Of a stretch of 64,000 bases of DNA, positions 3,076 through 61,400 are shown piece after piece; the first letter of the stretch is position 1; every line of letters begins with the position of its first letter. Made by a program: the position numbers and the translations under genes. Below the pieces are notes generated by a model. The model saw only the letters and a program-made list of their open reading frames with translations. It was not told where the DNA came from and ran no database searches. Origin of the DNA: Agapetus fuscipes (Eukaryota > Arthropoda > Insecta > Trichoptera > Glossosomatidae); NCBI GenBank assembly GCA_951799405.1, contig OX637334.1, positions 1-64,000 on the forward strand, in the 5' to 3' direction.

Positions 3076-3465
3076 GTAACTTCGGATTTTGCTTAGTTTT
3101 CTTTAGTGGACGAACAGGTAGATCTAGAATCACTGCTGGGTCGGGTCACAACCATCGGGAAGGCCTTCCGCCACAAAAAATATATAGCATTGCATGAGCG
3201 CTCTGTGATGCGCTTCCCCGGATGGAAGTGTACAAACGGAACGGGTATGAGAATGGGCTTGCGCAACTGCCCCTGCTATCCCCATAGCCTGCTGCAGCCG
3301 CGAGCAGCTTGTTCCAAGAGGTGCTGTCTATCTGTAGCCTCGTTTGGCACTGCGGTGTCAATCTGTCTGTTCTGATTTTATTTTATAGATTTGTTTTGTT
3401 TACTGTAAGTGTATTAATATTTTTGTTTTTTAACTTATAGATTGGGATGGTGGACTTGGTCCAGC

Positions 3466-3620
3466 CGCACTATCATCATCATCACGAGCTGGACAGCCCT
3501 GGGTGAGCCTTGGCTGAATCCAGGATTCTCCTCCACTCTCACCTGTCCATCACCTTTGCTCTCCAGCTACATATGTCGGCCTATACCGTCCATCCATCGT
3601 ATTTTTAGTCTTAATAAAGA
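3466..3620 (+). repeat. Dispersed repeat shared with the Rab39 intron, copy 1
   Basis: It carries ATCATCATCATCA, GAGCCTTGGCTG, GGTTCTCCTCCACTCT-like and CTCCAGCTAC motifs in the same order as 28303-28465. The family is not recognised. Confidence 0.6.
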
Positions 3621-37584: not shown

Positions 37585-39689
37585 AAAGTGTGGATTAAGC
37601 TTTTGGAAGAATTGTCAAGAAAACAAAAACTGATGTATTTAAATTTAAACAAAATTTCAATAAATGAATGAAAAAGTCTATGTCTAAATTAATTATATGA
37701 ATTCTTTCATGTACATTGATTGGTTTAAATATAAGCTCTGAAGTTTGTACAGAAATTACATAAAAGTAGGGGTTCAACATGATTTTGCAGAAAACATAAA
37801 TCAATTGCTAACAAATAAACGCATAAAAATGTCCCTCTTTAAATTTCTGAGCAACTTAATGTGTCTTGATTGCCACTTGAAGTCCATGTGATTTTGAGCA
37901 AAGAAATGGAATATGATCCAGAATTCCTGCACCTATAGGCAGGTTGGCAGATATTCATACTTGACTAATGGGTGAGTGTAAGGTTGACCTCCTAACTTGG
38001 TTCACTTTTGATGCCACCCCAGTTTCAGGGAAAGGCGGCAGGAGTTTAGGAGGAAAGTTTATTTTTATGTGAGGTTTGGCTTTTTTTGTATGTATTTTTT
38101 GTAAGCGCAAACTAACATGTGCCTGTTTGTAGGCATGCATTAAATATGAGCCTTAAATGTCAATATATCTTTGCAACTTAGATTATACATTATATATAGA
38201 TAGACTTAATTTTTTTTGGCTAAAACCAAAGTTTAACTATTCAAAAGTAAACAAAAATTATTTTGCACTTCTTGCATGTCAAAATAATGAGCTTACGGAA
38301 ATAATTCAGGTGCTCTCTTTATACGATTTAAAGACAATCCACAGTCACTCCAACAAAAGCACCAAAACAAATTCTAAAACATGGATAGTTGTTCATCACT
38401 CTAATTCATTACAACTAAAATCCAGATGGTTAGTGTAATTAGCCTCTTTTCTTGATAATCTCGATCAACATATTTTTGTCTGCGTTCAATGAAATATTTT
38501 GTTGAGTCCGAGGCGTCATTTCTTGAGTTCAGAAATTCAATTTTGAATTGAAGCAACATTTCCACACAAAGTACATGTTAGATTCAGGCTAAGTATTTTT
38601 AATACGATAAATAATCATTACTTCATTGAGTGCAGGGTAACTGCAGCACTTACATACATTAGTTGGGGAGTATAAACATTTTGACTAAGATGGCTACAGC
38701 ATAACGCTTTCTCAGTCCAACTGTTTGTGTTTTGTGTTGTCAGTTTATCGTACTTTGATATGACACTAATAGATATGATAGGATATTTGTACAGACACTT
38801 AGAAGAGCACTAACGTACATGTAATACAAAATGGAATTGCAGATTTTGGTTACTTTTATATTTAGGCAATGGAATATTGCTCGGGGTTCAGGCTGTTTAC
38901 ATGAGGAGTTTCATATAAAAATATTTGATAAAATCCAAATTAACAGCAGCTAAAATGGCCAATATAATATTCAAAACAAAACATAACCTAATCAAAACAA
39001 GAAAACCTTTTATGCAGTGGTAAAGAGATCACAGTAACCGTGGTTGAAAGTGGACCTAACAACGCCATCTCGTGCATCACTTCTGATAGTTGCACATGAA
39101 GTTAGCCGTGTTCATCTGCTCGCGGGTCTTATTTGATTTTTTATAAAAAGCACGCTGAAGTTATAGGAAGTGGTGTCAGGGAGGTTGTGCTGTACTTGAA
39201 GGAGTATTTAGTGAATATAAAAGCAGCGCCCTCACTCCAACAGCACCTATGTTCATTAAGACTCGAGTGTAACGGAAATCTATCCAATCCCTTCAAAGTT
39301 AGGTTCTGCTATGTTTGGATAGTGTTACATAAATGGCGGCCATCTTGGCTATTGTTATTCCTGATTTTACCCCTTATTGTACCTACTTGGAATAAAACAA
39401 ACGAGGCATTTTACTTCATATAATTTTTACAAGAGCACTTTTTAAATCTACACACTGTTAGGTTAACATATTTCTATTTGATTACAATTAAATGTGTAAG
39501 GTATATAAAGGTGGTATTGCACTTCATGTTGAGTGGATCACACGACTGGGAACCCACTGAGGACACCCACGAGACAAGGAGATTTCTATCAGCAGATATT
39601 TTGGAATGCCTCGCAGCAAATAAGCTTCCACTTGACTCCTTAATTAGCACATGTATTGATATAATCCCCAAAACTTTATTTTTCTTTAT
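37585..39689. other. AT-rich, non-coding, one R-family copy
   Basis: 37965-38187 is a degenerate plus-strand R-family repeat (GGTTCACTTTTGATGCCACC ... CTTTGCAACTTAGATTATA). No gene is seen in the rest. Confidence 0.5.
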
Positions 39690-40361
39690 AGTTGCATGCA
39701 TGTAGAGTACAGGGAGGTGGAGCAGGCGCTGGTGGGTTCTGCGTTGCATGCATGTAGAGTACAGGGAGGTGGAGCAGGCGCTGGTGGGTTCTGCGTTGCA
39801 TGCATGTAGAGTACAGGAGGTGGAGCAGGCGCTGGTGGGTTCTGCGTTGCATGCATGTAGAGTACAGGGAGGTGGAGCGCCTGCTGGTGGGTTCTGCGTT
39901 GCATGCATGTAGAGTACAGGAGGTGGAGCAGGGGCTGGTGGGTTCTGCGTTGCATGCATGTAGAGTACAGGAGGTGGAGCAGGCGCTGGTGGGTTCTGCG
40001 TTGCATGCATGTAGAGTACAGGAGGTGGAGCAGGGGCTGGTGGGTTCTGCGTTGCATGCATGTAGAGTACAGGAGGTGGAGCAGGGGCTGGTGGGTTCTG
40101 CGTTGCATGCATGTAGAGTACAGGAGGTGGAGCAGGGGCTGGTGGGTTCTGCGTTGCATGCATGTAGAGTACAGGAGGTGGAGCAGGGGCTGGTGGGTTC
40201 TGCGTTGCATGCATGTAGAGTACAGGAGGTGGAGCAGGGGCTGGTGGGTTCTGCGTTGCATGCATGTAGAGTACAGGGAGGTGGAGCAGGCGCTGGTGGG
40301 TTCTGCGTTGCATGCATGTAGAGTACAGGGAGGTGGAGCAGGCGCTGGTGGGTTCTGCGGG
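39690..40361. repeat. 51/52-bp minisatellite, about 13 units
   Basis: The unit is TTGCATGCATGTAGAGTACA followed by GG(G)AGGTGGAGCAGG(C/G)GCTGGTGGGTTCTGCG. Length alternates between 51 and 52 bp because of GGAGG versus GGGAGG. Long frames are open on both strands across the array because 51 is a multiple of three. They lack initiation context or homology and are not annotated as genes. Confidence 0.95.
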
Positions 40362-42727
40362 TGGGATTCTTCTTGACATGGTGTAGAGTTTCACAGTTCA
40401 GCTGGGTAAACCGTTCCTTAAATGTATTCTACTACAATGTCAAATAAAATGAATGCAAATTGACAACAATCATGAAATAGAATAATTGTAAAAGTAGAAT
40501 CGGGATCTATAATAACAATGTCTTATCTACATTTAAAAGGTCACCATTTTTCATTTTTAGTTATTTCTTTATAACCCTTATTTTGAGAGCTCAATTATAT
40601 TAACAAGGTTGTTGTTTTTTTTTATAAATCAGCCCTACATAGATACATTACTTTAGCTAGGTTTATCACATATTTTGTGAATAATTTATCATTATATGGT
40701 TTTACATATTTCATACATGATTTTTTAACATTCTAGTCAATAACATTAGGGTTTTGAAAATGTTGGGCAATTGAGACTCAAACATGGCAATCTAGGAAAG
40801 TGTTCAAGAGTGAGATCACAACGTGGAAATGATGAGAAAGTGATTTTCTGTTCTGTTTCTGTGTTCTCATACATTTATCTCATTAGAGAGAATCCTAGAT
40901 TGCAGCTTTTGATTCTGTATTACTCATTTAGTTCAGTTTTTTTTTTACTTTGACTCTTTAGACACCAAGAGTCTATTGCCACACGCCATTTTTGGTAAAT
41001 CCTTTCCCCCATTTGTATTATTACTTTAGCCTCACATCCTTATTATTTGATTGTGAATATTATCATAGCACAGAGTTACAATAAGACAATAATGCTTGAG
41101 TAACAATATGTATGGGGAGGAGTAAATGCCTACACATTGTACTCATGAAAAGCAAATTGGTAGAATTTTTATTGAAATGGTCGCTACAAAAATGTGCTAA
41201 TTAATTACATAGTTGAATGAATGAAAATAGCAAACTGGCAAGAGAAGCAAATTGAAAAATGAGAAAGAAAATCATTCATTCAAATTTATTAATTTATATT
41301 TTCCACACAAATGACATGAAAACGTTGAATGTTCAATAACAAATAGATTAGTGTGAATGTACATTTTGAGCTGCAACGAAGATGGCCATAATCCAGTTAT
41401 CTTCCATTTTACAAACAAAACATTAGAAATATCTTACAGAATCCTTACACACTAAAGCACTGAAATACTTGTAGGCTCATTAAGGTGTTTACGATTTACG
41501 CTGGAATATATTAGCTGTTGACGCTTACAGCTGCTTAAGCGGAGTCCCCAGACAGACTTGCTGTTTTGTGGGCGTTCCTACATGTTCAGTGTGTAATGGA
41601 TGCTATTTCATAAAAATTATATATGACTTGTTCTAAGTCTTATGGTTACATAAAGATTCAACAGCATTATTTGGGTATATAATGGTCACAAAATATTAAT
41701 TATAGAAAAATAATGACGAACAAACAATACTGAATAAGACGAGATAAGGATCCGGCCATACATACAAGAAAATACACACATTTTGTGCCAAAAAGAAGCA
41801 AGAATACTATTTATTAACAGCGCAGATGCTCTGTTCTGCATGTGCTTGTTATGTTTCTTTATATTTTGAACTTGGTACAGTTTTTCAAATTTTGTTCTAT
41901 GTGTTGCCAGGCTAATAAAAACAATTCAAACAGTTAAAAAGCTAGGTTAGATATTTTGTATTCATTTTAGTTAGCTGCATACAAAAGGCTTCATTTTGAA
42001 TGAATGATTTTTCAAAATAAGATGGCTGCATTTGGGAAATGTGTAGTTTATTTCACTAGAAAGGTACTTTTGATATAATAATGCTAATGTAACATTATTT
42101 TGAGCAAGCTGGTATTTGTAATGTTACCAGCGCATACAAATAATCCAACTCAAATTTTAAAATCTAGTTTGCCGTGTGAAACATCTTACAAAAAACTTAT
42201 AACTTATTACAGCTGTTGGGATTTAACAATTTAATTTAATTATTTGGTTGAAGATAATGGTATGTTATCAGCTTCATTCTAACAAAAGAAACAAATAACT
42301 CCAAATACTCAAAAGTTACGGGGAAAAATTCTGACATGGTATTATTCCATACATATTTTTTCAAATCTTCAAATAGCTATGTTTTTTATGCTGTTGTGAT
42401 TTTACAGCACTGTGAAGTGTCTGCTGTTGACAGATGTGCTACACGCAGGACGTAGTGCTTTAGTGACCTTTCAAACTACCTACATTATGTCGTATTGAAA
42501 AAGTAATGGCTGCCTGTTCTAGCCCGGCTAAGTGATATCATTTTTTTTTCACACTTTAAATGTGCACAGTCCATTCAACATGTATACAGAATCAATTTGA
42601 ATTTGGAACAAATATTGATATGTGTTCGCAACAAATAATACTTTTTCCAGAATCTTAACCAGGAACAACTTCATTTTTAGATATTGCAAATTACATATTT
42701 TTAAATTTCTACAAGGACAGAGCAAAA
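40362..42727. other. AT-rich, probably intergenic or 3' UTR
   Basis: No gene or repeat recognised. It may include the long 3' UTR of the minus-strand gene whose stop is at 43195. Confidence 0.4.
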
Positions 42728-43454: not shown

Positions 43455-46400
43455 CTGAAAGAGGAAAACACTATAAATAATAGATCACCGCCCTGTCAGC
43501 GCACACACTTGGCGGTAATGCTAAATGCAGGACGGTGCACCTTAGTATTTCTTCAAACTACCTACACAATATTGAATTGAAATTGTACATTCTATATTAT
43601 CTTAACCCGACCAGGCGACTTCACAAATATTCCCCTTATTTCAGAGTCCATTAATATTTTAGTTTTCAGTTTGTTAAACTACAAAGTAAAAATTAAATAC
43701 GTAAGCATTCTGTTTGTTCAGTAAACAGTTTATGTTTAAGCTGGGGCGGTGGTCAGGGCATGATGGATCATAAGGCCGTGTGATGGAAGCCAACTTTAAG
43801 CTTAAAAATTCTTTGGAGAGCTCGCTAACAGCAAATGCAACTATTTCAAGTGATGTCATCTCAGCCGTTAGCTTTCTTAGCTTCCCATTAATGGTCCATA
43901 CTATTCCACTGACAGTTGACAGCTAGCCCCAACACCAACATGAGCCTTAATTATAAATGACTAGGGGCTCCGCCCCTGGCTGCTACGCAACCCAATCCCT
44001 TAACATTAGGCAATGTGTATATTTCACATAGTTTTCTTGCGTTAAAATTTGTTATATTAGAAAACATGTAAAATAAAAAATGCAGTTTTTGTAAAATAAA
44101 TTATTTTTTTAAGTCTTTTAACAAAAGAAAGAAAACTAAAAGCAAATAAAAAAAACCAAACCGGTTTTAATTTGCTCCATCATAGTCCTTGACTTATATG
44201 TTGGTATGAGGCTGACCACCCAAGCTGTTAACAAATGTTGCACTTTGCCAATGTCACCCAACAAAAGAGCCTGTATGAAGAAGGTTATGAACTCTGGAGG
44301 AAATGAAAGAAGTAAGGACAGAAAGAAATGGCGGTTGATCTGTAATGTTGGCGGCTATCTATCTATAACCTATAATCTAAGCTGCAAAGATATTTATTTA
44401 TTTATTCATTCTTTAACGGCACATTGTGCCTTTTACATGTATACAAAAATAGAAATAAAAATACATTACAGACATAACAGTATCAAAATAAAACAGATTC
44501 CTACAAAATAAATCTTACAATAAGATTACTACAGAATAAAAGTAGAAGATATTTATGCAAAAAGTAAGAAGATGAAGAAAAAAACATAAGAGAGAAAAGA
44601 AAGAAGAAAAACATGAGAGCAATGAGCATATAGCATATAGAGCAATAAGAGCATGATCAAGTAATAATATTAAAACTTAGGTAAAATAAAAGAACACACA
44701 GATGAGGGTAAACAAAAATTGAAATACATTGCAAAAAAGTTAACAAAATAAGTAGAAAATAAAAAATAAAAACAAAGATAAAACAAAAAAAAAACAAAAA
44801 AGAAAAAGCAAGGTCTTATATTAAAGTAACAAAAATAAACTAGAAATTTGATAAAACTAGAGTAAACAATAGTACAGTACAATATTATAAGAGATGCAAC
44901 TCTACAATAATTATTATGTACTTATTATGTACCATGGGAGTTGAAGTACTTAATTAAATTATATTTGTATGTTTTAGGATTTGTATGAGTGTCAGAATCT
45001 ATTTCATTGTATATATTACCCAAACGTTGTGTAACAATTATATAAAAGAAGGACACGCCTGAGCACAAGGCCAGGCTGGAGGGGGTAACGACCTGCTGGC
45101 GCGAGCAGTCGGACAAAGCACGCAGACAGAGCAAGATCTAGTTACTTGTGTTTTAATTAAGAACCCTCGGAAGAAACGTAACAAATGGTGTCAGGTGTGG
45201 GGTTTAAAACCAAGTACTTAACCAAGTACCAAGTAAAAAAAATCTGCATTGACAATGTTTTAAATATTAAAATATTTCGTGGACATTATAAAATTTGTAA
45301 TTATTGTGCGTAACTAACTACCTACGACGTGTTCGAGAGACTTTTGATACGAAATAAATACTATTAGTTATTATTATTCTACAATATTTCTGATTTAAAA
45401 ATAAACATTCAAAATAATTATAAAGTGGTACCTATCTACATTATAATGGTACTTAACATTGAGTGATAGACGTGCAAAAATCCAAATTAATTATTATCCC
45501 ACATTATATTTAAATTGGTTGAAATAAATTTAAATTATTTTGTTAAAAGTATATTCTTCTTCTTCTAACAAAACAAGAAAATGGCAAAATTTGTGAATAT
45601 AAAAGACTTAAAAGTGGTGGAATTGAAGGAGGAATTGGCTGAGAGAGATCTGGATTCTTCGGGACAGAAAACAACCCTGCAGGCGCGTTTGACGGAAGCC
45701 TTAGAAAACGCGGGCGAAAATCCCAGTGCTTTCGTTCTGCTGTCAGGAGGAGGAGCCCTGGCAGAGCTTAATACGAGCCTGAGTGGACTGAAAGCAGAGA
45801 TGGCTGTCAACTCCAAGAGCTTGGAGGAGAAGATGGCTGACAACTCCAAGAGCTTGGAGGAGAAGATGACCGAGTTGGCTGTCAACTCCAAGAGCTTGGA
45901 GGAGAAGATGGCTGACAACTCCAAGAGCTTGAGGGAAGACCTGGCTGGCTGGAAGGAGGAGATGGCTAAAAACCTAGCCGAGAAGATGACCAATCTTAAG
46001 GAAGAGCTGGAGGAGAAACTGACTGGCCTTGAGGAAAGGCAAACAGAGACAATGTCAGAAATTGAAGCCCGAGTTTCCAACCTGGAAGAGCGTCTGCGAG
46101 CTAAGCTGGCTGACAAGTGCCCTATGGAGTCAACCCGACTGTCGCCAGCGACCGGCCATAGCCAGAACAATGAGACTAGCGGAGAATGCTCTACTCCAAT
46201 AAAAGTGGCCAGAGGGGAGGAAGATCCATGGCTGGTAAAGCACAATCTTCCGACCTTTGATGGGAAAACATCCTGGGAAGAGTATATGACGCTTTTCGAG
46301 ACAGCAGCGATGATGGGAAACTGGACCCAGCAGAAGAAGGCTTCTGTGCTGAGTTTGTCATTGCGAGGGGATGCCTTGCGGGTACTACAAATGGTACCCA

Positions 46401-49400
46401 TGGACCGCCGTAACGACTTTGGTGAGCTCAAACAGCGACTCGATATGAGATTTGGCCATAGATACATGGAGCAGCTATACAAGTCGCAGCTCAACACCAG
46501 GGTGCAGAAAACCAATGAAACACTGCAAGAGTATGAAATGGACATCGTCCGCCTTGTACGCGATGCATATCCTACAGCTCCAGACGATGTTTATGAAAGC
46601 TTGGCCATTGAAAAATTCCTGAATGGACTCCGTGAGTGGGAAACTCAGCAAGCGGTGAAGTTGGCCCATCCGAAGACACTGAACGAGGCATTAACACAGG
46701 CACTTGAGTTTGAGGCTATCAAGCAGTCTGTCAGGGGCCACACCAAAGTACGGGCCATGGAAGTGGAAGAGACCCAGTCATCCTCGACAGAGGAAATCAT
46801 TAAGAAAGTACTGGAGCGGCTCAGGTCAAGAAGACGCGATATACGTTGCTGGAACTGTGGTCAGCTGGGCCACCTTAGTACAAGGTGCCCAAAGCCTCAA
46901 CAACCCAAGAAACAGGGTTCGAAAAAAAAACGGGTTAATGGAAAGGGGCAACCGTTGACCCGCGCTGGAGAGGCCCTGAAGCTTGCTGCTATTGTCGCCA
47001 CCTCAAGAGGAAACTGTAGCAGCATTTTTGTTAATGGCTTGATTGATGGAGTAACCCGTGAACTTCTGGTGGACACGGGAGCAACCAGGACTATTATGAG
47101 ACGTGACATAGCAGCTCGGTGCAAACAGATCTCACCAACAAATTGGTCTTTGCGCACCGCCACGGGAGAAACAGCTCAAGTTTTTGGGGAGACGATTGCC
47201 ACCTTCCAGATTGGTAACACCACTTTTGATCATCGGACATTGGTGGCCAACATCGAGGAGGACGTGATATTGGGAATGGACATATTGGACCATTTTGGCT
47301 GCAGCCTGAATCTGAAAAAGGGCGCCATAAAGATTGGAAACGAAGAAGTAATCCTTCAAAGAAGAAAAGAACTAGCTGCGCGGGTAATCCTAGCAGAGAA
47401 TACCGAAATAAAAGGACATTCGGAGATGATGGTGTGTGCGCGCTTGGACTCCGACTGTGCCGATGACCAAATCCTGATGATTGAACCAGAAAACATAGGC
47501 AACGCTAATAAGGGAGTTCTGGTGGCAAGAGCAGTAATTCGCGCACGGGAAACCATTCCTGTCAAGATAATGAACGTAAATAACTTCCCTATCAAAATCA
47601 ATGAAGGTTGTGTTTTGGGGAGATGCGAAAAGATAACATCCATTGTACAACAGATGGTGAGGATGCCATGTGAAGAGAGGAAACTGACAACACAACTAGA
47701 AACTTTGGTACATGAAGCCTCCCAAGGCCTCACTGAGGAGAACAAACGGAGGGTGAGGAGTTTGATCTGTCGCTACCACATGATTTTTGAGGATTCCAAT
47801 GGTTCTCTGGGAAGAACTAAGGTAGTGCGACATACCATAGACACGGGAGATGCAAGACCCATAAAGCAAGCGCCACGAAGGTTACCCTTTGCGAAGCGGG
47901 AAGAGGCTGACCAGATCGTCCAGGACATGAGACGGGATGGCACCATAGAGCCGTCAAGTAGCCCATGGACATCGCCTGTGGTATTGGTGAAAAAGAAGGA
48001 TGGCACAACGAGATTTTGTGTGGACTACAGACAGCTCAACGAAGTGACAAAAAAGGATAGTTATCCCCTCCCAAGAATTGACGATACTCTGGATACACTG
48101 ACGGGATGTACCATTTTCTCCACGTTGGATCTAAAAAGCGGCTATTGGCAAGTGGAATTAGATGCCAAGGACAAGGAGAAAACTGCATTTTCAACGGGAT
48201 CTGGACTCTGGCAGTTTACCGTGATGCCATTTGGCTTGTGCAACGCCCCCGCCACTTTTGAGAGATTGATGGAGAATGTGCTACGAGGCCTATCGTGGGA
48301 AACCTGCCTCGTATACCTGGATGACATCATTATACTGGGAAAGGACTTTAACCATCAATTAAGAAACCTGGAGCAAGTATTTGGACGACTGCAAGATGCC
48401 GGACTGAAACTTAATCCCAAGAAATGCAACCTGTTCAGGAAACAAGTACATTATCTCGGGCATGTAGTATCTCAAAGAGGAGTGGAAGTTGACCCGGCTA
48501 AAGTTAAGGCTGTAAAAGACTGGCCCGTGTTAAAGGACAGACATGAAACCAGGAGTTTCCTGGGGTTGTGCACTTATTATAGAAGATTTGTGCCAAGATT
48601 TGCTGACATTGCTAAGCCGCTGACCAAGCTTACAGAAGAGAACACTCGCTTCAGTTGGAGTGATGCTTGTCAACAGGCATTTGAGGAACTGAAAAGACGA
48701 CTGACAAGTGCTCCAATCTTGAGCTATCCCCGAAAAGAAGGGAAGTTTATCCTGGACACTGATGCTAGCAATGTGGGGATAGGAGGTGTCCTCTCCCAGA
48801 TACAAGATGGACACGAGGCTGTTCTAGGCTATTTCAGTAAAGTACTATCAAAGCCAGAACGAAACTATTGCGTGACCAGACGAGAGCTTCTTGCCGTTAT
48901 AAAATCAGTAGAGCACTTCCGCAAATATTTGTATGGAAGGAGATTCACATTGCGGACTGATCACTCTGCACTAGTTTGGCTTTTGAGGTTTAAAAACCCA
49001 GAAGGACAAGTGGCTAGATGGATTGAGAGACTTCAGGAGTATGACTACGACCCAGAACACAGAGCTGGGACACTCCATCGTAATGCCGACGCTTTGTCAA
49101 GAAGGCCTTGTCACGAAGACTGCAGACATTGCAGCAGAGTGGACACAAAGGCTGCTATAGTAAGCCGGACGACAGTCACGAGCGAGGATTGGAGAGAAGA
49201 AGAAATGAGGCAGGACCAAGAGAACGACCCAGAGCTGAAGTATCTAATACAATGGGTGCGAGAAAAACAAAGGCCAACCTGGGAACAAGTCGCCCCGTTA
49301 TCACCAACCGTCAACAACTGGAAAATGGGATACTTAAACGAGCAATTGAAAACGAAGACGGTACAGTGAAGAAACTTCAGTTACTGGTACCAAAAGTGCG

Positions 49401-52400
49401 AGTCGCTGAAATCTTGAAGCTACTGCATGATGGGACGTCCGGTGGACACTTAGGAGTGAAAAAGACTCTGGAGAAACTGAGGGATCGGTTCTACTGGGTG
49501 AACTGCAAGGAAAATGTAAAAGATTGGTGCCGGAAATGCGTGACATGTGCCACAGCTAATGGACCCTTAAGAAAGAAGAGAGCCCCCATGCGCCAGTACA
49601 ATGTTGGGAGCCCATTTGAAAGGATCGCTATTGACATCGCTGGTCCATACCCGACTACCGAAGATGGCAACAAGTACATTCTGGTGGCCATGGACTATTT
49701 TAGTAAATGGGTAGAAGCATACGCTTTACCCAACCAAGAAGCAGTTACGGTAGCAGAAGCGCTGGTGACCCAACTGATAAGCCGATTTGGAGTACCACTG
49801 GAACTGCACTCTGATCAAGGGCGGAACTTTGAGGCCAGAGTGTTCCAGCAAATGTGCGACTTGCTGGGGATCAAGAAGACGAGAACCACAGCCCTGCATC
49901 CACAGTCTGATGGGATGGTAGAAAGGATGAACCGGACGGTTGGGAGATATTTGGCAAAGCATGTGTCAAGTCATCAGAGGGACTGGGACCGACATCTTCC
50001 CCTATTTCTTTTGGCTCATAGGTCTGCAGTTCACGAAACTACTGGCCAAACACCTGGGAGCATTCTTTTTGGGCGAGAACTGCGACTGCCATGTGACCTG
50101 AAGTTTGGGTGCCGACCGACTGAGGATCTTGCAGGAGAGGACTACGTCTCGGATCTCCGCAGGCGACTAGATGGTGCCCACGAGCAAGTGCGAGCAAACA
50201 TCCGTGAGGCAAGTGGTCGGATGAAAGAGCGATACGACATCCGGGCTGAGGACGGTGGATACCAAGCTGGGGATTTAGTATGGCTGTTTGACCCAAAAAG
50301 GCGCCGAGGATACTCTCCAAAACTACAACGCTCATGGGATGGGCCGTATGAGGTCGTAAAACGTATCAATGACGTCATCTACAAGATAAGGAAAGAGCCA
50401 AGCGGAAAACCACGGATTGTCCATTTTAATCGCCTCACACCATATCTGGGAAACAACCACGATGACGGCCCGGAGCAAAGAGTACGAAGGTGTGCCGGAT
50501 TTAAGGGAGCAGCCACTTTTGATGATTTTTGGGTTGAGGCACAAGATGGGCGAAAAATTCGGCATGACATTACCAAAGAAGTCCAACAGGATCTCTTTGC
50601 TGTACCATCTAACTACGCCATGGCTTGTTGCACGGCTGAAGACCTGGACATGTCTGGCGGGGTTGCTGGAGCATTCCGTAACAAGTTCGGCAAGGTAACA
50701 GCACCGGTGGAGTCGAGGCCTATTGCAGGGAGAGCATTACGACTACCTGGTGAAGAGCGTCACGCATACTGCCTGGTGACAAGGATGACAGTTTCGGAGA
50801 AGACTGGTTATCAAGACCTGTGGGACAGCCTTGTGCATCTACGGGACCAACTGATGCAAGCCGGCATTTCTAAGCTGGCCGTACCAAAAATGGGTGGTGG
50901 ACCAGCAGGGCGAGACTGGAGGATCATCAGGAACATAATGGAAACAGTCTTCGAAAATACTGGCATCGAAATCCTGGTGTGCTGCGAGCAGCTGCAGAGA
51001 AGACACCCCGACGACCGAACGGTGGATTGTTACTTCTTCTCTAGAGCCGGATGCAGTCGAGGGACATCTTGCAGATACCGGCATGCTCCAGGTTCAAGAC
51101 TGTTCCGGGACGGAACAGCCTAAGGAGGGGGCAATGTAACAATTATATAAAAGAAGGACACGCCTGAGCACAAGGCCAGGCTGGAGGGGGTAACGACCTG
51201 CTGGCGCGAGCAGTCGGACAAAGCACGCAGACAGAGCAAGATCTAGTTACTTGTGTTTTAATTAAGAACCCTCGGAAGAAACGTAACAGTTGAATACGTA
51301 TTAGTGGGCTGTAGAAGTGTGTAGATGTATGTGTGGATACAGTGCGATAAGGAACTAAGTTGCGGGTAATAAATGAAGGGATGGAGAAATTAAGTTCGGA
51401 AAGTAGGATTGGTGAATCAATTAAGGAGTGTTTAATTTTAAAAAGCACAATGAGGTCATTGATTAAACGCCTATCAGTGAGACTATTAAGATTCAAAATA
51501 CTAAGTAAATATTGTGCATTAAATTCAGAGACGGGAATTCTTAATTTGAAATTAATAATTTTTACAAATTTAAGTTGAATGCGCTCAATGGCTTTTATAT
51601 GACAGGCATAATAGGGTGACCATACGGGGGAACAATATTCCATGGAGCTTCTAACTAGTGACATGTAAAGCGTTTTAATACTAAGAATATTATTGAAGTC
51701 CTTGGTTGTTCTTGCTACAAAACCTAACATTTTCATTCCCTTACCCGCAACATAGTTTATATGATTTATAAACGATAATTTGTGATCAAATAAAACACCT
51801 ATGTCAGAAATAACCAAAACACTATTTAACTTTTGTTGACCTATGAAATAATCATGCAAACAGGGATTTTTAATTTTATAAAATCTCATTATTTGGCATT
51901 TAGAAATGTTAAGGTTTAGGTTATTGAAGTGACACCAGTCGACTAGTTTATCTAATGATGATTGAAGTTTAAGACTATCATCATTTGATTCTATCACTCT
52001 AAAAAATTTGACATCATCCGCAAAAAGAAGAACATGACAGTCGAGGAAAATATTAGCAATATCGTCTAAAAATAAGAGAAACAAATAGGGACCCAAATGG
52101 GAGCCTTGCGGAACACCACTCTTTTGGCAGAATGTAAAGGATTTTCAGTTATTAATCTTTACCGATAATTGTCTATTAGAAAGATAGCACGTCAACCAGG
52201 AGAGAAAGTGGCCACCAATTCCCATTTTCTCAAGTTTAAAGAGGAGTAATTTGTGAGAGACAGAGTCAAATGCTTTACTGAAATCTGTATGTTGAAATCT
52301 GATATGTTAACATTTAGGGCTCATATTAAATGCATGCCCACAGACAGGCACATGTAGGTTCGCACCTACACATTTTGCATGTGTGCATTCAAATAAACAA

Positions 52401-58400: not shown

Positions 58401-61400
58401 GGTTAGTGTTTACTAGAGGTTTGGGTTTGTTATTGCAGCATTTGTAAGCACAAACTTACACCTGTTTGCTGGCATGTGTACATGAAATATGAATCTCAAA
58501 TGTTAAAATATCATTGGAACTTAGATAATATTTAATTAGAAACATGGTGCAAGGTCCTCATGTTAAATACTCATGCATCCATTTCAAAATCGTGACAAAA
58601 AATTCATTCAGTTTATGGGCAAAGACAAACCAGGCAAAAATTGTTCCGTGGGAAAAGGGCAAAGCAAAGAATTGTGAACTTTACATTGATGGAGGAATAA
58701 CTGCTCATGCTTCTGTAACAACTGATCCTCTTACATCAGATCCCACATGAACATATCTGTAGTGCAATATTGTTAACATGACTTCATGCATCTCTAGTGA
58801 CTGGCACGAGCTAGGTATATAATATGCTGGGTGTGACTCTGGCTGGGAATTCAGAGCTTAGTTTAGTGGCAATGCATGTAAAGAGATATGAGAGCTCTGC
58901 ATCAGATTAAAATTGATAATCTCTAAATTTTTTTTCACAGAACAAGTATTCTATAATTAGGCTGCGTACGCACTAGGCGGTTCCAGCTGCGGTTCATACT
59001 GCGTTAGCTTTAGGTTAGGTGCAACCGCAGTTTGCGGCATGCCGCACGCCCTGCTGCAGTGCGGCATGCCGCACGCCCTGCTGCAGTGCGGCATGCCGCA
59101 CGCCCTGCCGCAGTGCGGCATGCCGCAGGTGCAACCGCAGTTTGCGGCATGCCGCACGCCCTGCCGCAGTGCGGCATGCCGCAGGTGCAACCGCAGTTTG
59201 CGGCATGCCGCACGCCCTGCTGCAGTGCGGCATGCCGCACGCCCTGCCACAGTGCGGCATGCCGCACGCCCTGCCACAGTGCGGCATGCCGCAGGTGCAA
59301 CCGCAGTTTGCGGCATGCCGCACGCCCTGCCGCAGTGCGGCATGCCGCAGGTGTAACCGCAGTTTGCGGCATGCCGCACGCCCTGCCGCAGTGCGGCATG
59401 CCGCAGGTGTAACCGCAGTTTGCGGCATGCCGCACGCCCTGCCGCAGTGCGGCATGCCGCAGGTGTAACCGCAGTTTGCGGCATGCCGCACACCCTGCCG
59501 CAGTGCGGCATGCCGCAGGTGTAACCGCAGTTTGCGGCATGCCGCACGCCCTGCCGCAGTGCGGCATGCCGCAGGTGTAACCGCAGTTTGCGGCATGCCG
59601 CACGCCCTGCCGCAGTGCGGCATGCCGCAGGTGTAACCGCAGTTTGCGGCATGCCGCACACCCTGCTGCAGTGCGGCATGCCGCCTAGTGCGTACGTACC
59701 CTTAGACAGTTGAAGGGTTTGTGTATTGACATTGTGAAGATTCATTTTAAATTAATAATGTAAAAATAAAATAATAAGTTTTTCTTCACAAGTTGATTTA
59801 TTTCTAGGGCTTTCCATGTTGTTGAATCATCACATTGTCGTTGATAATGATGTGATGTGAGGTTGTCCTCTTGATAATGATGTGATGTGAGGTTGTCCTC
59901 TTGATAATGATGTGATTACCTCGAAAGAGCTCAAGGAAATAAATCAACTTGTGTAGAAAAAATTTGTATTGTATTTTTACATAATTAATTCTATAATTAT
60001 AAGGCAATTTTACTTCCCTCCTTTTTATTATTCATTATTAAGTTTCCTTGTTCCTGAGGATGAGCTAAGGATTGCGAATGTGAGTAAATTTACTTAAATA
60101 ATAAAAGAGTGTGAAAATACAACAGCCTTATTGACTATTGTTATAGAATACTTGCTTTGTAAAAAAAAGATTAATGATGAAGTTTCACAGTGGTAATACA
60201 CCAAACATTAAAAATATAAAAGTGATGGTGAGGGGCTAACCATACATAAAGGTATGTTCCTACAAGCAATGTTAGTGGGCATGCTTTTAAATTTTACTCA
60301 AAAACATTCACACTCTCCACAACCTTCATTTTCCTTTTTCTTAGAAACTTGGCCATGTGATGTCACAATTTACTTAGTGTTGAAGTTTGCGCTGAGTACG
60401 TTATTTGGAGTTGGCATACCTAAGCTTGAGGTGCATCCATACATGCTGAGCTATTGGAATGGTTTTGCAGCTGCCATCGTCCATATTTGGAGTTGGCATA
60501 ACTAAGCTTGAGGTGCATCCATACATGCTGAGCTATTGGAATGGTTTTGCAGCTGCCATCGTCCATATTTGGAGTTGGCATAACTAAGCTTGAGGTGCAT
60601 CCATACATGCTGAGCTATTGGAATGGTTTTGCAGCTGCCATCGTCCATATTTGGAGTTGGCATAACTAAGCTTGAGGTGCATCCATACATGCTGAGCTAT
60701 TGGAATGGTTTTGCAGCTGCCATCGTCCATATTTGGAGTTGGCATAACTAAGCTTGAGGTGCATCCATACATGCTGAGCTATTGGAATGGTTTTGCAGCT
60801 GCCATCGTCCATATTTGGAGTTGGCATAACTAAGCTTGAGGTGCATCCATACATGCTGAGCTATTGGAATGGTTTTGCAGCTGCCATCGTCCATATTTGG
60901 AGTTGGCATAACTAAGCTTGAGGTGCATCCATACATGCTGAGCTATTGGAATGGTTTTGCAGCTGCCATCGTCCATATTTGGAGTTGGCATAACTAAGCT
61001 TGAGGTGCATCCATACATGCTGAGCTATTGGAATGGTTTTGCAGCTGCCATCGTCCATATTTGGAGTTGGCATAACTAAGCTTGAGGTGCATCCATACAT
61101 GCTGAGCTATTGGAATGGTTTTGCAGCTGCCATCGTCCATATTTGGAGTTGGCATAACTAAGCTTGAGGTGCATCCATACATGCTGAGCTAACACCGTCA
61201 ACTACTTCTCTTAAATTGAGGGGTTGCCAGCTCCCAACGGGGCTGGTTCTCATTTCTTTTGAAGGATAAGTCAACTTTACATGGCAACCCCTTGAGGGGC
61301 GCCATATGAAATTGCATTATATAGCTGCTCTCCTGTCTTGGATTCTGTATGACTCATTTGAATTGATTTAACAAAAATAAACTAAATTCTAGATAACAAA

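Follow-up and report, generated by a model that had tools for sequence, protein, structure and literature searches.

A TARG1-type macro domain and a CCCH zinc finger behind the integrase of a Ty3/gypsy retrotransposon of Agapetus fuscipes

What is the coding tail that follows the integrase of a Ty3/gypsy retrotransposon of Agapetus fuscipes (Trichoptera, Glossosomatidae), and with which part of the element does it work? The element lies in the first 64,000 nucleotides of contig OX637334.1 (assembly GCA_951799405.1, forward strand; hereafter the window), where integrase and tail share one open reading frame at 49108-51123, as a preliminary description of the sequence had stated. We identify in the tail a macro domain, of the TARG1 type by its sequence and predicted fold, followed by a CCCH zinc finger; the same tail occurs in further copies of the element (family 1) and in a second, Gag-only family (family 2). 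The reading that we prefer, in which we have about even confidence, is that this Ty3/gypsy family carries the tail as a conserved accessory module, with a macro domain that lacks the Lys-Asp pair of TARG1 while keeping its fold and some of its pocket, and with an RNA-type CCCH finger, and that it works with Gag rather than with the integrase by binding ADP-ribose and RNA.

Identity of the tail and anatomy of the element

Human TARG1 matched the tail without gaps over residues 38-170 (expect value, E, 7.7e-19; 1.2e-26 with a profile of four relatives), and a structural comparison of the predicted tail by VIA-align recovered the TARG1 fold. The Pfam Macro model scored the window tail at 14.7 bits against a cut-off of 22 (E 0.029), so that an annotation relying on Pfam only would miss this domain. 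For the finger, the closest PDB sequences were those of the CPSF4 fingers (E 1.5e-3 alone; 1e-4 with a profile), and a C-x7/8-C-x5-C-x3-H spacing was found in both families, between which it is identical in the alignment. The Pfam zf-CCCH model (cut-off 20.5) scored above threshold for P0001, a contig-derived protein described below (21.3), and below it for the family-2 copy L031 (19.2) and the window tail (17.0). Both domains had been proposed in the preliminary description, which had also pointed to a DMSGG loop in the macro domain; this loop is present in the window copy but is no family trait, being a private change from DMSRG that, in a set of 30 copies, no further tail protein shares.

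The pair of long terminal repeats (LTRs) and the order protease, reverse transcriptase, RNase H and integrase identify the window element as a Ty3/gypsy LTR retrotransposon. Its features are as follows.

45030-45183, plus strand: 5' LTR, 154 nucleotides, identical to 51135-51288
45581-46958, plus strand: Gag, with SAP domain, 33-nucleotide repeat stretch, Gag and CCHC knuckle; end approximate
46959-49369, plus strand: protease, reverse transcriptase and RNase H, sharing the Gag frame in the window copy
49387-50466, plus strand: integrase H2C2, core and C-terminal SH3-like (GPY/F) module; in the window copy the frame differs from that of RNase H
50470-50565, plus strand: linker from integrase to macro domain, common to family 2 by alignment
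50566-50997, plus strand: TARG1-type macro domain with R105 and A146 (numbering of the 217-residue tail) in place of the catalytic Lys and Asp
51028-51084, plus strand: CCCH zinc finger, C-x7-C-x5-C-x3-H, read from the sequence
51097-51121, plus strand: hairpin adjoining the 3' LTR, a putative cis element; conserved as nucleotides, in another frame in family 2
51122-51132, plus strand: putative polypurine tract, from the sequence
51135-51288, plus strand: 3' LTR, identical to the 5' LTR

The identity of the two LTRs bears out the earlier impression of a young element, and GTTG flanks both on the outer side, consistent with a target duplication. Pfam listed SAP (3.6e-9), Retrotrans_gag (5.3e-7) and zf-CCHC (8.2e-5) in Gag; gag-asp_proteas (9.6e-13), RVT_1 (4e-37) and RT_RNaseH_2 (3.9e-35) in the first part of Pol; and Integrase_H2C2 (4e-19), rve (7.5e-16) and Integrase_p58_C (1.5e-12) in the integrase. 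The SAP domain starts Gag, and the number of the in-frame 33-nucleotide repeats (45581-46120) differs among copies. A single Pol frame, as first described, holds for integrase and tail but not for the whole of Pol in the window copy, since this copy lacks 28 nucleotides near 49313 relative to the majority of 23 relatives and its frame is broken between RNase H and integrase. A minus-strand frame at 51143-52096 overlaps the 3' LTR and by eye resembles a non-LTR reverse transcriptase, so the element may be nested in an older retroelement. Elsewhere in the window, two long repetitive minus-strand frames (39474-40394 and 58957-59745) look like minisatellite arrays rather than genes.

Two families that carry the tail

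The genome search covered 618 Mb in 148 contigs, with 150 of 1100 candidates scored, and the copy counts, read from the listing, are therefore lower bounds: at least 57 close copies at 85-100% identity make up family 1 and at least 93 copies at 49-50% make up family 2. The preliminary description had allowed that a missing macro fold, or a tail confined to a local chimera, would speak against it; the fold was found, and a local chimera is ruled out by a tail that is family-wide and recurs in a second family. Among the ten family-1 copies that were opened (L035-L044), the macro-CCCH unit follows the integrase end in all ten, and an LTR pair is present in every copy except L042, for which none was found. 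Nine of them have Gag (403-446 codons) and Pol (1408-1485 codons) in separate frames, with Gag of the window type in four and of another type in five; in the tenth, L039, Gag and Pol form a single frame with a stop where the tail begins.

The family-2 copies L031-L034 have a single frame of 775-819 codons comprising SAP, the repeat stretch, Gag, CCHC, a coiled coil, the macro domain and the CCCH finger. Pfam, run on L031 alone, gave SAP, myosin tail and CCCH and listed no Pol domain there; the Gag part was assigned through alignment to the window Gag. The LTR pairs, 99.2-99.8% identical over 477-478 aligned nucleotides, are separated by 3460-3568 nucleotides in three copies and by 4495 in L034, and such a spacing of 3.5-4.5 kb is too short for Pol. 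These are Gag-only, non-autonomous LTR elements, with LTRs and Gag and without reverse transcriptase, RNase H or integrase; their near-identical LTRs and the 4-nucleotide duplications read from the flanks (GTAT, ATAT, GTAT and ATAT) mark them as mobile without a Pol of their own. An open frame of at least 740 codons surrounds 83 of the 93 listed family-2 rows.

Between Gag and tail, where Pol would be, L031:4131-4544 matches Myosin_tail_1 (PF01576; E 7.4e-12, 44.4 bits against a cut-off of 38.1), and the halves of this coiled coil match myosin II in order and in one register (myosin-10 1673-1717, E 2.4e-4; myosin-11 1795-1833, E 2.5e-3). We take this stretch for a coiled coil captured from host myosin II and shortened. 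Its source gene was sought at four genome loci (L081-L084), which represent different exons or a distant paralogue; no protein matched at E 1e-3, and nucleotide similarity was confined to one 52-nucleotide stretch at 75%.

P0001, a protein from a 996-base ENA contig, comprises by eye an integrase end and then a tail 92% identical to that of family 2 over 220 residues; a Pol-bearing element with the family-2 tail thus probably exists. P0002, from the dragonfly Ladona fulva, shares 43% identity across 70% of the query, keeps the TARG1 Lys and ends ahead of the Asp position. Exons of the host TARG1 gene lie at three loci (L077, L078 and L079; one on contig C52 and two on C31), beside a short tandem repeat, with the first exon seen in L079 only. 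A recent capture of this gene was considered and rejected, the tails being just 28-30% identical to the host exons.

When protein databases were searched with the tail and candidates were scored within longer proteins, no relative was found among 1003 candidates in one search or among 550 in another, and a search with the macro part alone found 2 among 38 candidates. Nor did any relative emerge when viral contigs were scanned with the tail, P0001 and the integrase piece, or when a genome-contig collection was searched. A profile scan of viral contigs gave eight loci, of which the seven readable as single frames are phage-type macro domains; L045, L047, L048 and L052 are TARG1-like, retain both catalytic residues and are 34-39% identical to the tail.

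Catalytic residues, constraint and rival explanations

Residue roles and numbering follow TARG1 (anchored on chain 4j5r_B), in which passages of PMC9967889 and PMC8501950 assign roles to K84 and D125, the latter resolving the intermediate. The K84 position is Arg in family 1, as had been noticed at the outset, and Pro in family 2, and the D125 position is Ala in both families; host TARG1, human TARG1 and the aligned phage relatives have both residues. The tail, judged by its residues, is probably not a hydrolase of the TARG1 type, Lys84 and Asp125 both being replaced, and this loss favours binding over TARG1-type hydrolysis. The early suggestion that the tail removes host ADP-ribose marks thus finds no support, and the alternative of pure binding offered beside it fits better. 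The TARG1 positions D20, D37 and G43 are retained.

Seven of 30 family-1 copies were left out of the selection count for internal deletions. In the remaining 23, which have a whole integrase, the tail has 16 synonymous and 14 nonsynonymous changes (ratio 0.27, P 4.6e-4), the same ratio as the integrase (29 and 26; 0.27, P 2.1e-6). Between the two families the ratio of nonsynonymous to synonymous divergence (dN/dS) of the tail is 0.21 (dS 2.1), the three codon positions are alike at 63, 71 and 41%, and 16 of 43 fourfold sites are the same. The final 35 nucleotides, which span the hairpin and run into the purine tract, match L031 at 30 of 35 positions and stand in frame phase 0 versus 1. This pattern of codon positions, together with the shifted frame at the 3' end, indicates that conservation acts on the protein in the macro-CCCH part and on the nucleotides at the extreme end only. 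The original argument that an uninterrupted tail was probably under selection is weak for one young copy and had to be examined in relatives.

The retention of the tail in the Gag-only family after the loss of Pol argues against a simple integrase module. A Gag-side module for ADP-ribose and RNA accounts for these findings most economically: the ligand of the macro domain would be ADP-ribose, carried by a host protein or by nucleic acid, the CCCH finger would bind the RNA of the element, and the tail with Gag would serve the assembly, placing or protection of the Gag-RNA particle. We think that the tail probably matters for particle making or packing.

Several observations weigh against this account. 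The structure models are of moderate quality (mean predicted local distance difference test score 59; predicted template-modelling score 0.65-0.67), and the finger is their least sure region. TARG1 H32 and S35 are also altered in the tail, which may thus bind ADP-ribose more weakly or not at all. The related hydrolase SCO6735 carries Gln at the Lys position according to a passage of PMC9967889, so loss of the Lys alone does not prove inactivity. An in-tail stop is present in 11 of the 57 listed family-1 rows, and the 30 family-1 copies behind the selection count were ranked by score. In the four best-scoring family-2 copies the tail has 1 synonymous and 7 nonsynonymous changes (Gag 37 and 18; coiled coil 2 and 0); a larger family-2 set gave 13 and 12 (P 0.0017; 23 tails, 1 of 24 having been excluded for length), from a score-ranked list biased towards identical proteins.

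The absence of tail constraint in those four family-2 copies would also suit a tail that is a mere passenger, its coding part carried along with a 3' end that is kept for the hairpin, polypurine tract and LTR needed in replication. The tail is indeed retained in the 7 of 30 family-1 copies, fetched by score, in which the upstream Pol is partly or wholly missing, and the hairpin and the purine-tract start are conserved at the nucleotide level. We consider this quite unlikely, however, as the conserved cis part is just the last ~35 nucleotides and even shifts frame, whereas macro and CCCH are conserved as protein; moreover, tail and integrase are under equal constraint in family 1 and the fusion stays in frame in family 2. 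It is unlikely, too, that the tail is an integrase-bound targeting module which, in the manner of a chromodomain, steers insertion to ADP-ribosylated chromatin. The tail does occupy the place immediately after the integrase C-terminal module where other Ty3 elements have a chromodomain, and P0001 joins an integrase end to a family-2 tail; yet family 2 has lost the integrase and retained the tail as a Gag fusion, and chromatin targeting needs no RNA-type finger.

We give as little credence to an active ADP-ribosyl hydrolase that strips host PARP marks. Its appeal is that TARG1, the nearest relative in fold and sequence, is a hydrolase, and that a second gypsy lineage in the genome, described below, keeps Lys and Asp in a strongly constrained insert; against it stand the replacements at both catalytic positions in both tail families and the failure of TARG1 K84A to rescue bacteria in an assay quoted in PMC8501950. 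It seems very unlikely that the macro domain acts on ADP-ribose 1''-phosphate derived from RNA or tRNA, or on ADP-ribosylated RNA ends of another kind, while the finger confers specificity for RNA: TARG1 is clearly nearer in sequence and fold, and no RNA-processing residues could be assigned.

Known systems and a second macro-domain position

The tail differs from TARG1/OARD1 (C6orf130) in the replacement of K84 by Arg or Pro and of D125 by Ala and in having a CCCH finger and Gag or Pol as fusion partners, and from the DarG macro domain in that no toxin partner is seen and the catalytic Lys is absent. Chromoviruses are Ty3/gypsy elements with a chromodomain after the integrase; they share with family 1 an extra domain at this place, but here macro-CCCH replaces the chromodomain and is kept without integrase in family 2. 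Macro domains are also known in RNA viruses and, by a review sentence in PMC4977317 referring to Basta et al. 2009, some teleost endogenous retroviruses carry macro-domain reading frames; those are additional frames of fish retroviruses, whereas here the domain is part of a Pol or Gag tail with CCCH in Ty3/gypsy elements. Family 2 resembles the plant TR-GAG (as defined in PMC6022998) and BARE-2 type elements in having LTRs and Gag without Pol, but belongs to an insect and adds the myosin-II-like coiled coil and the macro-CCCH tail. Literature on macro domains with LTR retrotransposons, screened by title or abstract start, yielded no such Ty3 element; subscription papers lie mostly outside this coverage, and we do not claim that none has been published.

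Searched with the Pfam Macro model, the genome yielded eight matches from nine candidates, and among the macro domains found is one at a different place: in a decayed gypsy copy, L076:1450-2055 (G000:C1:26557373-26557798), it lies between RNase H and integrase (E 9.3e-20 to TARG1), with eight further copies at 72-74%, among them L087:925-1431 and L089:947-1453. In these two the frame reverse transcriptase-RNase H-macro-integrase is unbroken as far as read and both Lys and Asp are kept; this one pair gives a dN/dS of 0.11 in the insert and 0.08 in the integrase. The L087 insert matches TARG1 at 2e-20 and is not listed by Pfam Macro; a Baculo_F-type envelope frame lies downstream in L087 (5.5e-14). 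A third set of nine copies has a far more divergent insert at the same position, 28-31% identical to the L076 macro domain; in the one opened, L088, the insert (951-1448) gave no PDB match at E 1 and none to Pfam Macro, and L088 is likewise followed by a Baculo_F frame (6.2e-21). A weak match (E 4.1e-5) indicates that this insert is possibly a worn macro domain in envelope-bearing elements.

In a small tree of 11 sequences, indicative only, the tails group with the Ladona protein (0.97, 0.96) and the inserts stand apart (0.92), which suggests that tail and insert are of separate origin. We tentatively propose that Ty3 elements of insects acquired TARG1-type macro domains on two or more occasions and at two different positions: the insert of envelope-bearing elements would have kept the residues for catalysis, whereas the tail at the Pol end, later fused to Gag, would have lost them and come to serve the Gag-RNA particle as an ADP-ribose reader.

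In the Gag-only family, nature has run an experiment on which extra part survives when Pol is dropped. That Ty3 elements in a single genome carry macro domains at two positions, of which only one looks catalytic, likewise offers a natural comparison of whether ADP-ribosylation restrains or serves LTR elements. If the proposal of repeated acquisition is true, ADP-ribosylation would be a recurrent contact point between insects and their LTR elements.
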